Part shown: in pieces, positions 1 to 8,143 of the stretch
Numbering within the stretch: position 1 is the first letter of the stretch
How the letters are laid out: each line of letters begins with the position of its first letter
Assembly (NCBI GenBank): GCA_900314795.1
Contig: OMWP01000009.1
Span: 76,268 to 108,715 of the forward strand
Origin: an uncultured Eubacteriales bacterium
GTDB taxonomy: Bacteria; Bacillota; Clostridia; Oscillospirales; Acutalibacteraceae
DNA length: 32,448 nt
Reading direction: 5' to 3'
The notes under the pieces: model-generated
Told to the model about the DNA's origin: nothing
Databases searched by the model: none
The model's input: the letters and a program-made list of their open reading frames with translations, nothing else
Program-made: the position numbers and the translations under genes

Positions 1-118
1 AAGATTTGGACAACACCTCAAGCCTGCCTGCGCCCTCCGCCTTGTTCTGCGAAATTCTCCGCTAATATCTTTTTAAAGCTTTTTATTGCTACTTAGTATA
101 AAATTAAAAAATTTACTT

Positions 119-154
119 TTACCTATTGACATAGTAGGTAAGTAGTGTTATAAT
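119..154 (+). promoter_or_regulatory. metY promoter with overlapping inverted repeat
   Basis: A perfect SigA promoter: TTGACA at 126-131, a 17-bp spacer, and TATAAT at 149-154. The -35 box sits inside an inverted repeat, TTACCTA (119-125) and TAGGTAA (135-141) with 9 bp between the arms. This placement suits a repressor operator. In Firmicutes, cysteine and sulfur genes are often controlled by Rrf2-family CymR, so such a regulator is a reasonable guess, but the match to any defined box was not tested. Confidence 0.8.
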
Positions 155-180
155 GCAGTTGTCGTTGAGAGAGAAATAAA

Positions 181-235
181 TCGGTTGAGATTGCCACGTC
201 ATCGGCTTGGTCACCGATTCCTCGCAATGACAAAT
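181..235. repeat. intergenic repeat family A, copy 1
   Basis: The core GGTTGAGATTGCCACG and the distal CTCGCAATGAC are shared with copies at 2081-2118 and 9774-9815, and more loosely with 8042-8064. It lies in the metY 5' leader, so it is transcribed here. This looks like a short REP/MITE-like element. No ORF is present. Confidence 0.6.
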
Positions 236-255
236 CGATGAAAGGAGAAACAACC

Positions 256-363
256 ATGTCAGCACCTTATTATGAGCAGTCCCCCATCATGCAGTGTCGA
301 ATGTTCAACTCCCGGGCATGTCAATATGGTCGGAGCATTTTTCACTGTGCTCAGAAACACTGA
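256..363 (+). CDS. Cys-containing leader peptide (uORF) upstream of metY
   Basis: A 35-codon ORF lying about 190 bp before metY. It has a strong ribosome binding site (AAAGGAG, 242-248) and an ATG at 256. The peptide starts MSAPYYEQSPIMQC and has Cys at codons 14, 22 and 31, plus three Met. It overlaps RNA segments that can fold in two exclusive ways (see the attenuator at 309-413). Its position ahead of a sulfur-assimilation gene suggests a regulatory leader peptide that senses charged tRNA-Cys, rather than a functional protein. Neither translation nor regulation is proven, and I do not recognise a named leader family. Confidence 0.6.
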   Translation: MSAPYYEQSPIMQCRMFNSRACQYGRSIFHCAQKH

Positions 364-413
364 CATTGTTTCACTTGCCATGTTGCCCGGGAGATAAGCC
401 GGGCATTTCTTAT
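309..413 (+). promoter_or_regulatory. candidate transcription attenuator in metY leader
   Basis: Segment 1, CTCCCGGGCA (309-318), lies inside the leader ORF and is perfectly complementary over 10 bp to segment 2, TGCCCGGGAG (384-393). Segment 2 also pairs over 7 bp (TGCCCGG, 384-390) with segment 3, CCGGGCA (399-405). That second hairpin is followed by ATTTCTTAT, a weak intrinsic terminator. The two pairings exclude each other, which is the hallmark of attenuation. Smaller hairpins lie between them: GAGCA/TGCTC at 333-352 and GAAACA/TGTTTC at 354-372. The direction of control cannot be decided by eye, because a ribosome stalled at Cys14 would mask segment 1 while one stalled at Cys31 would leave it free. 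Confidence 0.5.
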
Positions 414-450
414 ACATAATCATCCCAAAGGAAACGCTCGTTTTTAAATA

Positions 451-500
451 CCAACCCTCCGGCTCCTTTGGAGCCACCTCCCTTAGAAAAGGGAGGCTTC
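451..500. repeat. intergenic repeat family B, copy 1
   Basis: AACCCTCCGGC is followed by two hairpins: GGCTCC/GGAGCC (461-475) and CCTCCCTT/AAGGGAGG (477-496). The same CCTCCCTT..AAGGGAGGC theme recurs at 1864-1970, 3250-3293, 3842-3892 and 4012-4047. It sits between the attenuator and the metY ribosome binding site, so metY mRNA carries it. Confidence 0.6.
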
Positions 501-552
501 AAGTATCATCTCCCCTCAATATCATCATATCAATTTAGAAAGGAACTTTATC

Positions 553-1833
553 ATGAGCAATTATAAATTTGAAACCTTACAGTTACACGTCGGTCAGGAA
601 CAGGCTGACCCCGCCACCGATTCCAGAGCCGTCCCGATCTATCAGACCACCTCTTATGTTTTCCACAACTCTCAGCATGCCGCCGACCGCTTCGGACTTG
701 CCGACGCGGGCAACATCTACGGCAGACTGACCAACTCCACCCAAGAAGTGCTGGAGAAGCGCGTCGCCGCTTTAGAGGGCGGCAGTGCGGCACTGGCGCT
801 CGCATCGGGCGCGGCGGCGATCACCTACACCATCGAGGCGCTTGCCGCGAACGGCGGCCATATCGTGGCACAAAAGACCATCTACGGCGGCAGCTATAAC
901 CTGCTTGCCCACACCCTGCCGCAGTACGGTATCAGCACGACCTTTGTTGACGCGCATGACCTCGATGAAGTAGAAAACGCGATTCGGGACAACACCCGCG
1001 CGATCTATCTCGAGACCCTCGGCAACCCCAACAGCGACATCCCCGACATTGACGCGATCGCCGCGATCGCCCACCGTCACGGACTGCCTGTCGTGGTGGA
1101 CAACACCTTCGGCACCCCCTACCTGATCCGTCCGATCGAGCACGGCGCGGACATCGTTGTTCACTCGGCGACCAAGTTCCTCGGCGGTCACGGCACCACC
1201 CTCGGTGGCGTGATCGTGGAATCGGGCAAATTCGATTGGAGTAAAAGCGGCAACTATCCGAACATTGCCGCGCCGAATCCGAGCTATCACGGCGTGAGCT
1301 TCTATGACGCGGTCGGCCCCGCGGCATTCGTCACCTACATCCGCGCGATCCTCCTGCGTGATACCGGCGCGGCGATCTCACCCTTCAACGCGTTCCTGCT
1401 GTTACAGGGCGTCGAGACCCTCTCGCTGAGACTCGACCGTCACGCGGAGAATACCAAAAAAGTTGTGGAATATCTCGCGAATCATCCGCAGGTCGAGAAG
1501 GTCAACCATCCCTCGCTCCCCGATCATCCCGATCACGCGCTGTATCAAAAGTATTTCCCGAACGGCGGCGCGTCCATCTTCACCTTTGAGATCAAGGGCG
1601 GCAAGGAAGAGGCATGGAAATTCATCGATAACCTCAAAATCTTCTCTCTGCTCGCGAATGTCGCCGACGTGAAGAGTCTGGTCATCCATCCCGCCTCCAC
1701 CACCCACTCACAGCTCAATGATGAGGAGCTTGCGGAACAGGGCATTTATCAAAACACCATCCGCCTGTCCATCGGTACGGAGCACATCGACGACATCATC
1801 GCCGATCTGGAAAACGGATTTGCGGCGGTTTGA
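553..1833 (+). CDS. metY: O-acetylhomoserine sulfhydrylase (aminocarboxypropyltransferase)
   Basis: A PLP-dependent enzyme of the Cys/Met metabolism family, 426 aa, the usual length for MetY. It makes homocysteine from O-acetylhomoserine and sulfide, and some members also act as cysteine synthases. Visible marks are the N-terminal FETLQLHVGQE, the cofactor-loop SGAAAI (85-90), VVDNTFGTPYL (181-191) with the PLP-binding Asp, and the Schiff-base lysine Lys208 in SATKFLGGHG. The C-terminal SLGVH-like region reads LVIHPASTTH, typical of the family. The start is fixed by the AAAGGAAC ribosome binding site at 539-546. It is the only structural gene behind the leader described above, so sulfur-responsive control is likely. 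Confidence 0.93.
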   Translation: MSNYKFETLQLHVGQEQADPATDSRAVPIYQTTSYVFHNSQHAADRFGLADAGNIYGRLTNSTQEVLEKRVAALEGGSAALALASGAAAITYTIEALAANGGHIVAQKTIYGGSYNLLAHTLPQYGISTTFVDAHDLDEVENAIRDNTRAIYLETLGNPNSDIPDIDAIAAIAHRHGLPVVVDNTFGTPYLIRPIEHGADIVVHSATKFLGGHGTTLGGVIVESGKFDWSKSGNYPNIAAPNPSYHGVSFYDAVGPAAFVTYIRAILLRDTGAAISPFNAFLLLQGVETLSLRLDRHAENTKKVVEYLANHPQVEKVNHPSLPDHPDHALYQKYFPNGGASIFTFEIKGGKEEAWKFIDNLKIFSLLANVADVKSLVIHPASTTHSQLNDEELAEQGIYQNTIRLSIGTEHIDDIIADLENGFAAV

Positions 1834-1863
1834 GTGATAAGGAGAGAATACCCTTTTCAGAAT

Positions 1864-1970
1864 CAACCCTCCGGCACTTTGTGCCACCTTCCTCGCCGGA
1901 AACGGCTCCCCCCTTGTCCGCTTTGCGGACATTCCCCCAACGGGGGTACCTTAGGAAAGGGAGGCTTTTG
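1864..1970. repeat. intergenic repeat family B, copy 2 (expanded)
   Basis: It begins AACCCTCCGGCACTTTGTG and ends TTAGGAAAGGGAGGC, like copy 1 at 451-500. In between are extra hairpin units: GTCCGC/GCGGAC near 1916-1930 and CCCCC/GGGGG near 1934-1946. It is a longer version of the same element, or nested copies. Confidence 0.6.
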
Positions 1971-2080
1971 AGTCACGAAGAAACGTAAAAGAAAAGAATA
2001 AAAAAGGGCACGCGTGCCCAGAGTCCCGTTTATGGGCAACGTATTGTTATACAATAGAATCACAGGAACAAAATGCAATA

Positions 2081-2118
2081 GGTTGAGATTGTTACGGCTC
2101 TTTGAGCCTCGCAATGAC
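2081..2118. repeat. intergenic repeat family A, copy 2
   Basis: GGTTGAGATTGTTACGG followed by CCTCGCAATGAC, the same two end motifs as the copy at 181-235 but with a shorter middle. Confidence 0.55.
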
Positions 2119-2152
2119 AATCCATGTATTGAAAAAAGTATGAGGTGATTTT

Positions 2153-2338
2153 ATGTTTGATGATGCACGCTTTTACTGCCGACTGGCAGAGGATTCGGGA
2201 AGCTATGGAAAGGCTGATTGCTCTGACTCCGCGATGTTCCTTTCGATCAGCAAGCTCGATTTTGAAGACGACTTGCTTGACGCGATGGACAACGCCGACG
2301 ACTACCTCCTTGACGAGTCAAAGGATTTAGCCGCATAA
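2153..2338 (+). CDS. small acidic protein of unknown function
   Basis: A 61-aa ORF with a good ribosome binding site (GAGGTG, 6 nt from ATG), followed 15 bp later by a strong terminator, so it looks like a real monocistronic gene. The product begins MFDDARFYCRLAEDSG and is rich in Asp and Glu, especially in the second half (DFEDDLLDAMDNADDYLLDE). It has Cys at positions 9 and 23, no signal peptide and no membrane segment. An overlapping frame starting at 2145 lacks the ribosome binding site and is rejected. I do not recognise the family, so function is unknown. Confidence 0.6.
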   Translation: MFDDARFYCRLAEDSGSYGKADCSDSAMFLSISKLDFEDDLLDAMDNADDYLLDESKDLAA

Positions 2339-2353
2339 TAATCCGCATAAAGA

Positions 2354-2388
2354 ACCGCCGCAGACGTTAAAATCTGCGGCGGTCTTTT
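2354..2388. terminator. bidirectional intrinsic terminator
   Basis: An 11-bp perfect stem, ACCGCCGCAGA (2354-2364) with TCTGCGGCGGT (2373-2383), followed by TCTTTT on the plus strand. On the minus strand the hairpin is followed by TTCTTTAT. It serves both the small acidic gene (+) and the methyltransferase gene (-). Confidence 0.9.
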
Positions 2389-2389
2389 G

Positions 2390-3178
2390 CTATTTGATCG
2401 AACGGTACAGTTCGATATGGATACGATGTTTTAAATACAACGGTTCGTCATATCGCGCGAGGATACGGCGATATTCCGCTTCGAATTCCCGTACCTTTTC
2501 GGGCGGGAGTGAAGCGCCGACGCCGCGGCAGGTCAGCACCCTGCCGAGCCACGCTTCTTTGGTGAAAGCGAGCGCTTCATCATAGGAGATGACCGCTTCA
2601 CTGACAAAGCGAGCCTGCGCCCAATCGGGGAAGTGATAGTCGTATTCTTGAAAGCCCTCAGGATTCCACGCGGGATTGTACGCTTGCACGAGGGCGATCA
2701 TCTCGGCGATCACAGCGTCCTCCTGCGGCAGCCAGTCCATGAGGATCTTACAGAAAAGCCCCTGCGGTTTCAGGACACGAAAAATCTCGGCGGCGGCTCC
2801 ATCTGCGTCAAAATACGGAAAGCACTGCACCGCTGTCACCGCGTCAAAAGCGTGATCATCAAAGCCCGTAGCCTCGGCGGGGCACACCTTGAACGCGATG
2901 CGCTCCATGCCCTTTTGGCGGGCAAGCGCTCTGCCGACGGTGATCTGATTCTCGGCGATATCGGTCGCGATAAAATGCGCGCCCGAATGGTACAGGTTCA
3001 TCGGCAGGATCGCGGTACCGCTGCCGAGGTCGAGGATCTGCTGCCCCTCTTTGCCGATCCCCCACTCAATGAGCTTCTCATACATGCTCTCGGGGTAGAT
3101 GTCTCGGAATCGGGCGTAGTTTTCGGCGGTCTTGCCAAAGTCAAAATCATTGGCATTATCGATATAAGATAGCTTCAT
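2390..3178 (-). CDS. class I SAM-dependent methyltransferase
   Basis: A 262-aa methyltransferase with the SAM-binding motif I, ILDLGSGTAI, at about residues 48-57. An acidic residue ends strand 2 (ATDIAENQ), and FDAVTAVQCF fits motif II, a region common in small-molecule methyltransferases such as the UbiE/MenG-like fold. The substrate cannot be read from the sequence. The start at 3178 is chosen over an upstream codon at 3214 because it has an AGGTG ribosome binding site and because a promoter (-10 at 3196-3201) lies between the two. It ends at the shared terminator with the convergent small gene. Confidence 0.85.
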   Translation of the reverse strand: MKLSYIDNANDFDFGKTAENYARFRDIYPESMYEKLIEWGIGKEGQQILDLGSGTAILPMNLYHSGAHFIATDIAENQITVGRALARQKGMERIAFKVCPAEATGFDDHAFDAVTAVQCFPYFDADGAAAEIFRVLKPQGLFCKILMDWLPQEDAVIAEMIALVQAYNPAWNPEGFQEYDYHFPDWAQARFVSEAVISYDEALAFTKEAWLGRVLTCRGVGASLPPEKVREFEAEYRRILARYDEPLYLKHRIHIELYRSIK

Positions 3179-8066: not shown

Positions 8067-8143
8067 GCGCTGGTAGCTCAGCTGGATAGAGTGTTTGGCT
8101 ACGAACCAAAAGGTCGGGGGTTCGAGTCCCTTCCAGCGCGCCA
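8067..8143 (+). tRNA. tRNA-Arg (anticodon ACG)
   Basis: A 77-nt tRNA. The acceptor stem GCGCTGG (8067-8073) pairs with CCAGCGC (8133-8139), then discriminator G and an encoded CCA (8141-8143). The D-arm reads GCTCAGCTGGATAGAGT, the anticodon loop CTACGAA with ACG at 8101-8103, and the T-arm GGGGGTTCGAGTCCC. It decodes CGN Arg codons after A-to-I editing. Its 3' end was evidently used as an integration site: copies of it lie downstream in both orientations. Confidence 0.97.

Follow-up and report, generated by a model that had tools for sequence, protein, structure and literature searches.

The leader of metY in an uncultured member of the Eubacteriales is, with a probability of about 0.8 and as judged by comparing it with many related leaders, a ribosome-mediated transcription attenuator that reads the supply of Cys-tRNA. 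Within the 32,448 nucleotides that were analysed (hereafter the window, the features below being on its forward strand), metY (553-1833), encoding an O-acetylhomoserine/O-acetylserine sulfhydrylase (TIGR01326, scoring 635.6 bits where the cut-off is 495.1), lies downstream of a sigma-A-type promoter at 126-154, in which a "-35" box TTGACA (126-131), a 17-nt spacer and TATAAT (149-154) give 12/12 consensus bases plus a TG. Between the two is an ORF of 35 codons (256-363), opened by an ATG behind the Shine-Dalgarno sequence AAAGGAG and encoding MSAPYYEQSPIMQCRMFNSRACQYGRSIFHCAQKH, in which Cys occupies codons 14 (295-297), 22 (319-321) and 31 (346-348), TGT in every case. Segment 1 (CTCCCGGGCA, 309-318), which is inside this ORF, is a perfect 10-bp complement of segment 2 (TGCCCGGGAG, 384-393), the two forming the putative antiterminator helix P1, and close by a second helix, P2, would join ATGGT (326-330) to GCCAT (377-381). 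Segment 2 is common to P1 and to a predicted intrinsic terminator (384-405), where 384-390 pairs with segment 3 (399-405) through 7 bp around an 8-nt loop followed by TTTCTTATAC, the scanned tail being TTTCTTAT; complementarity, the cognate-pairing test and the terminator scan all point to segment 2, and antiterminator and terminator are mutually exclusive in the window as in its relatives. A sequence-only reading of the same DNA had named the promoter, the ORF with its ribosome binding site and three Cys codons, the three segments with their 10-bp and 7-bp pairings and the position of segment 1 within the ORF, and on recheck all of these were exact to the letter.

In the mechanism that we infer (stalling, ribosome footprint, coupling, timing, direction and response to cysteine alike), a ribosome would start on the leader ORF while RNA polymerase is still transcribing the leader. 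When Cys-tRNA is short, it would stall with a Cys codon in the A site, Cys14 in the window and usually a Cys-Cys pair in relatives (L047 and L154 among them), its leading edge at about nt 306, just short of segment 1. The proposed control site is the core TGT CGA ATG (Cys14-Arg15-Met16, 295-303), 5' of segment 1. Segments 1 and 2 could then pair, aided by P2, once segment 2 has been made, and P1 would hinder the terminator so that metY is transcribed. When Cys-tRNA is ample, the ribosome would advance across segment 1 and P2, leaving segment 2 to pair with segment 3, and transcription would end near nt 405-413.

The layout is more than a chance arrangement, because the ORF, the Cys codons and the pairing recur in relatives. 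When 150 genomes of the window's genus were searched at the DNA level, 15 gave matches, the window's own included; 13 of these (L009-L021) carry the element ahead of a metY hit, and two were spurious. Named records, whose labels are for the most part Lachnospiraceae, Oscillospiraceae, Ruminococcus or Clostridia, supplied 80 metY loci, and 31 of these were assigned to the element family by pattern and profile, degenerate members such as L050 and L083 among them. Carriers with a named isolate record include Lachnospiraceae bacterium AC2029 (L046) and YSD2013 (L043). L083 is a minimal 65-nt version whose leader ends directly after segment 1, and the scan accepted no terminator in it. A covariance model, R1, which matches the window genome once, gave matches in 14/391 genomes from the class as a whole, of which one was judged spurious by eye, and in 69/85 genomes of a single genus (g200), each with 1-5 of them; the element is therefore patchy in the class and common in g200. 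A peptide profile matched 13/295 genomes of the order (two spurious), a search in the family of genome G555 matched only G555 itself out of 9 genomes, and a search among relatives of G675 matched 58/118 genomes in 2/26 genera, g200 and one other with a weak match. Five matches were discarded as spurious by eye (L022, L023, L115, L116 and L130), and three loci (L055, L068 and L070) coincide in position with L013, L108 and L113. From the g200 search, 120 of 131 matches were examined, the 11 left out being mostly weak or at contig ends but including one strong match in G834. The resulting pool holds 174 elements (120 from g200), or 119 at below 90% identity (72 from g200), the copy in G555 (L117/L144) standing outside the 174.

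One line of support is the ORF itself. An ORF with Shine-Dalgarno sequence and ATG in the Cys-codon frame is present in 117/119 elements, against 2 and 3 in the other two frames, and no leader among the 119 is free of Cys. The leaders are rich in Cys (421/4156 codons) compared with the longest ORFs downstream (159/46403), and its placement is anything but even: codons -3 to -1, next to the core and immediately 5' of segment 1, hold 216 Cys in 357 codons and the last two codons 82 in 238, against 10 in 825 for segment 1 and 17 in 1055 for the N-terminal part. At least one Cys at -3 to -1 is found in 115/119 elements (four lack it), most often at codon -1 (104/119) or -2 (97/119), while many relatives have an extra Cys codon at the end of the ORF, beyond segment 1 (last codon, 69/119). 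In 81/82 cases, the first nucleotide of codon -1 lies 14 nt from CTC(C/T)CGG. Between +1 and +11, Cys occurs in 37/1295 codons (mostly +3, +7, +10 and +11), which is far under the leader mean, yet not under the N-terminal background. Codon choice is reversed as well, with TGT in 352/421 Cys codons of the leaders and TGC in 120/159 of those in the longest downstream ORFs. The sequence-only reading had asked for conservation of the Cys codons in aligned leaders, and here the answer is divided: of the window's three positions, that of Cys14 (codon -1) alone is generally conserved, and that of Cys22 recurs in just 14/117.

Pairing between segment 1 and the terminator arm is likewise kept where the letters are not. 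The scan accepted a terminator hairpin in 114/119 elements, the five without one (L050, L063, L068, L083 and L086) being left out of the sets used for pairing permutation and ribosome folding. In 36 elements that lack CTCCCGGG, segment 1 and the terminator arm have changed jointly, and the summed duplex energy of the cognate pairs is -676.5 kcal/mol, while permuted pairs average -547.2 (sd 16.7) and reach -613.8 at best in 5000 permutations, although the 36 do not amount to 36 independent events because the elements are related. In an alignment of 28 sequences, the whole structure has 91.9% of its cells paired versus 30-55% when slid by 1-3 columns, and P2 reaches 97.3%, three of its four pairs having both partners altered in at least one sequence; P1 is uninformative in this alignment because its near-invariance reflects the selection of the sequences for P1. 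The window terminator is weak, as had been said of it, with 7 bp and a short U-rich tail, and the same short tail is found in its nearest relatives (L010 and L011), whereas the tails of L012, L014, L016 and L020 have 5-7 consecutive T's, which those of L013, L017 and L018 do not. It is the sole terminator-like site within window 1-560, for which shuffles predict 0.3.

Such conserved RNA raises the question of whether a metabolite-binding riboswitch (for SAM, cysteine or similar), with an ORF lying in its aptamer by chance, would do as well. It would be in keeping with how strongly CGAATG and the P1/P2/P3 fold are conserved, with the terminator/antiterminator layout and with the folding of 160-425, which beats 200/200 shuffles (z -3.61). 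We nevertheless consider it very improbable: the Shine-Dalgarno-led ORF keeps to a single frame, the conserved unpaired letters are mostly in-frame codons, P1 is replaced in paralogs, and no Rfam family matched the window leader or, at E<=1, five relatives, T-box and SAM riboswitch families included. T-box RNA and SAM riboswitch families had no match anywhere in the window, whose sole Rfam match is a tRNA gene at 8067-8140, and of the 49 metY loci without the element, 20 were compared with Rfam and gave no related family, the one hit being a purine riboswitch on the opposite strand. Since no Rfam family matched, RNA annotation will miss the element.

A second alternative takes the peptide as the sensor, CRMxNSRA stalling the ribosome on a sulfur metabolite so that segment 1 is covered and the genes are off. 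It draws on the 20 aligned leader peptides, across which R-M-x-x-S-R is invariant and the A nearly so, but it is extremely improbable in our estimate, because the P1 strand accounts for S-R-A, and because conservation is seen at the level of codons (CGA, TGT), beyond that of residues. Moreover, some g200 paralogs swap S-R-A for other residues or another frame (LIHAG, KLPG, KFPG), while segment 1 of the diverged set still fits the terminator arm. The residues that separate the two Cys sites are free to vary, and selection on this stretch seems to act through the RNA strand rather than the encoded peptide.

Returning to the attenuator, the direction of the switch was approached by folding leaders under a ribosome mask, which covers 15 nt on the 5' side and 11 nt on the 3' side of the first A-site base and was shifted codon by codon. 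In a first series, 114 elements were folded from 45 nt before the CGA codon: mean terminator probability is 0.38-0.39 with the ribosome at the Cys-Cys codons, 0.92-0.93 at +2 to +10 and 0.35-0.56 from +12 onward, the corresponding values for the window being 0.16 at the codon after Cys14, 0.89-0.94 at +1 to +11 and 0.03 at +12. In a second series, the 114 leaders were folded from 50 nt before the ATG, and the terminator averages 0.64 with no ribosome present, 0.54 for a ribosome at codon -1, 0.92 for one at +5 and 0.60 for one that has reached the last codon; an extra ribosome at the start codon gives 0.39, 0.93 and 0.51 for the last three. Comparing codon -1 with +5, the terminator drops by more than 0.2 in 56/114 elements (74/114 with the ribosome at the start codon) and rises by more than 0.2 in none, so that without the second ribosome the effect of a Cys stall is 0.2 or less in 58/114. 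The folding thus favours the view that stalling at the Cys codons before segment 1 promotes read-through, to a degree that depends on the stretch folded and on timing.

For the window itself, the outcome varies with the stretch. Folding 253-405 gives the terminator a probability of 0.00 when Cys14 occupies the A site and of 0.14 when Cys31 does, and folding 161-405 gives 0.91 and 0.94, so neither model bears out the earlier suggestion that stalls at Cys14 and Cys31 have opposite effects. Because the two models disagree on the level of the terminator, read-through upon a Cys14 stall is only suggested as the polarity. A default-ON state in the absence of a ribosome was considered and dropped, terminator probability then being 0.13 for 253-405 but 0.94 for 161-405. 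Timing may be what matters, given that in a window transcript ending before segment 3 is made (161-393) the 1:2 pairing has a probability of 0.96, whereas the minimum-energy fold of 160-425 has the terminator and lacks the 1:2 pairing. In that fold, the start of the ORF pairs with its end, which excludes P1, and the attenuator model therefore needs either timing or an initiating ribosome.

The letters involved are AUGUCAG at the start of the ORF (256-262) and CUGACAU at its end (359-365). Duplexes between the ORF end and the 5' UTR plus ORF start reach -12.8 kcal/mol or better in 8/9 own-genus elements tested, and in folding terms this helix may serve, within the window's genus, as a fourth strand of the switch that excludes the antiterminator. 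More widely, the CGATGT motif at the ORF end was paired with the 5' UTR in 80 elements, for which own pairs have a mean energy of -11.48 and permuted ones -10.63 (sd 0.27), own-pair energies not going beyond every one of 2000 permutations; CATC is present in 37/80 of these 5' UTRs and, reversed, in 2.

A feature that exceeds what the attenuator model needs, for which Cys codons suffice, is the near-invariant CGA-ATG. The core codon is CGA in 116/119 elements and the next one ATG in 117/119, counts to be read in the light of the elements being related by descent and of the search model having been built from CGAATG-containing sequences (exceptions under that model are L110, L178, L221 and L234). 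Outside the core, CGA accounts for 90/103 Arg codons beside Cys versus 21/242 of those elsewhere in the leaders, and for 60/1603 in the longest downstream ORFs. Within the ORF, CGATG[TC] is in frame in 85/99 cases, which is why the preference seems to act on codons. UGU-CGA-AUG stands ahead of segment 1 and CGA-UGU-stop at the ORF end. Looking beyond the family, the 500 nt upstream of metY in the 49 unassigned loci contain an ORF with Shine-Dalgarno sequence and ATG, 12-60 codons and at least 2 Cys in 10/49 cases (L052, L057, L065, L069, L071, L081, L082, L093, L100 and L102), against 0/49 on the opposite strand, and five of these leaders (L057, L065, L069, L071 and L081) have CGA-ATG too. Those labelled Treponema share FEKLVR-x-NFR-x-GRM, and one labelled Faecalibacterium has NFRYGRM.

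This preference and its recurrence in Cys-containing metY leaders outside the family are also what an account would cite in which the Cys codons carry little weight and the switch answers general translation speed or CGA decoding. That account is very improbable, for Cys is the enriched residue and the neighbouring genes are mostly Cys/Met genes, and a link through 2-thiocytidine-32 was unsupported by TtcA scores, which were 48-67 bits in three genomes (G000, G741 and G574) and 187-201 bits in five others, below the cut-off of 272 throughout. A speculative addition to the attenuator, which we regard as rather unlikely, is that the rare CGA together with UGU forms a second, translation-level part of the sensor, with decoding that is slow or sulfur-dependent and that reads beyond the charging of Cys-tRNA. 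If so, this codon pair would be a general signal in these bacteria, as it recurs in other Cys leaders upstream of metY. The CGA-beside-Cys rule is in any case directly testable and may reveal how codon context tunes stalling. CGAATG as a pause site for RNA polymerase is an idea only.

The promoter may add a layer of its own. A 19-bp palindrome, ACCTA-TTGACATAG-TAGGT, lies across the -35 box at 121-139, and the pattern A[CT]CTA-N9-TAG[GA]T occurs in the 300 nt that precede the leader start in 80/119 non-redundant elements, against 0/119 on reversed sequence; its form is nearly always ACCTATTGAC...TAGGT, and copies are nearly identical among the elements having one. That it is the operator of an Rrf2/CymR-type repressor is a guess from sequence, and if it were true, promoter and attenuator could both answer to sulfur state. 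Genes that look Rrf2-like by eye adjoin the operon in L139 and L141. From the operator to the ATG, the distance is 116 nt in the window, 62-66 in L012, L013, L016 and L020, 117 in L018 and 134 in L014. Positions 21-107, 181-234 and 474-498 each have counterparts at other places in the genome (window 1-2400 gave 51 matches in all), so that 181-234, which lies between promoter and ORF and lengthens the 5' UTR relative to L012, L013, L016 and L020, and 474-498, which separates the terminator from metY in part, probably arose by insertion. Another dispersed repeat with further genomic copies is found at 1864-1968.

The genes that follow the element tell what it might be for. Across the 174 elements, the nearest assigned neighbour is metY in 62, metQ-like in 55, a cystathionine synthase/lyase gene in 42, metN in 2 and an iron-containing dehydrogenase gene in 1, with none assigned in 12 (two of which end near a contig edge); these assignments are by BLAST to the proteins of a few loci, most of them named through NCBIfam, with metY, MetI and PatB above its cut-offs and synthase/lyase, CysK, MetN and MetQ below. 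In four of 11 regions read (L138-L141, the last three by eye), synthase/lyase is followed by cysK, metN and metI. For five elements of the unassigned 12 the neighbours were read: the element precedes an amino-acid ABC permease gene in L118 (by family search), L104 and L110, and in two g200 elements, L222 (by family search) and L226, a LysR-type gene and then a nitrogenase component 1-like gene. These annotations suit a role in supplying cysteine or methionine, and of the two the codons indicate cysteine. Since the arrangement recurs before genes for cysteine/methionine synthesis and import, the element most likely switches sulfur genes on at cysteine shortage. The proposal that the metY leader is a leader-peptide attenuator for Cys is thus supported by sequence comparison on four counts, namely ORF, Cys placement, competing helices with compensatory changes, and gene set. 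Relatives lacking both a conserved ORF and conserved pairing would have spoken against it by the terms of the sequence-only reading, and the comparison showed each of the two to be conserved. It offers a candidate cysteine switch for relatives among gut and rumen Clostridia, acting on metY, cystathionine synthase/lyase operons and metQ, and in the few cases read on amino-acid permease and LysR genes.

How does this compare with known systems? Attenuators of the trp type work with four strands, and their stalled ribosome covers segment 1. The window family resembles them in its regulatory codons, in its contest of terminator and antiterminator and in the proposed path from stall to read-through, but it has three strands, and the stalled ribosome would stop short of segment 1 and leave it free. 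Cys leader peptides of Actinobacteria were reportedly treated by Canestrari and colleagues in 2020. As far as the portion consulted describes them, such peptides share with the window family a short ORF with Cys codons ahead of cysteine genes, and differ in that their runs of Cys lie close to the stop codon and that a conserved terminator hairpin is absent (PMC1262725), mycobacteria being portrayed elsewhere, in the part seen, with leaderless ORFs and translational attenuation (PMC13236596). As of 2010, leader-peptide systems other than ermC had, according to the text available, been shown only in Proteobacteria/Actinobacteria before a histidine leader in bacilli (PMC2965389), and the main text of PMC6429828 mentions neither cysteine nor metY. 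For Clostridium, the cysteine controls that we found described, in excerpts, are a CymR regulon predicted in C. acetobutylicum (PMC3828012) and the Cys-specific T-boxes of Clostridium perfringens, which are alike in placing cysteine-responsive premature termination before Cys genes but use T-box RNA and a TGC specifier, with no leader peptide mentioned in the passages seen (PMC2940859). Another close counterpart is uORFC-8-2, the leader of cysS in Rhodobacterales, which Brewer et al. (2021, PMC8632094) interpret as ribosome-mediated attenuation. From its description in the sections consulted, it too has tandem Cys codons in a uORF, at positions 14-15 in most cases, and then a terminator, whereas it belongs to alpha-proteobacteria, precedes cysS only, is dominated by UGC where the window family has UGU, and is described with two prominent stems, unlike the window family (PMC8632094). 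Since the literature thus holds related Cys leaders and none was recognised for clostridia or for metY in the open-licence literature covered (titles and abstracts, without supplements), we rate the metY-type Cys leader of Clostridia as a new variation on ribosome-mediated attenuation.
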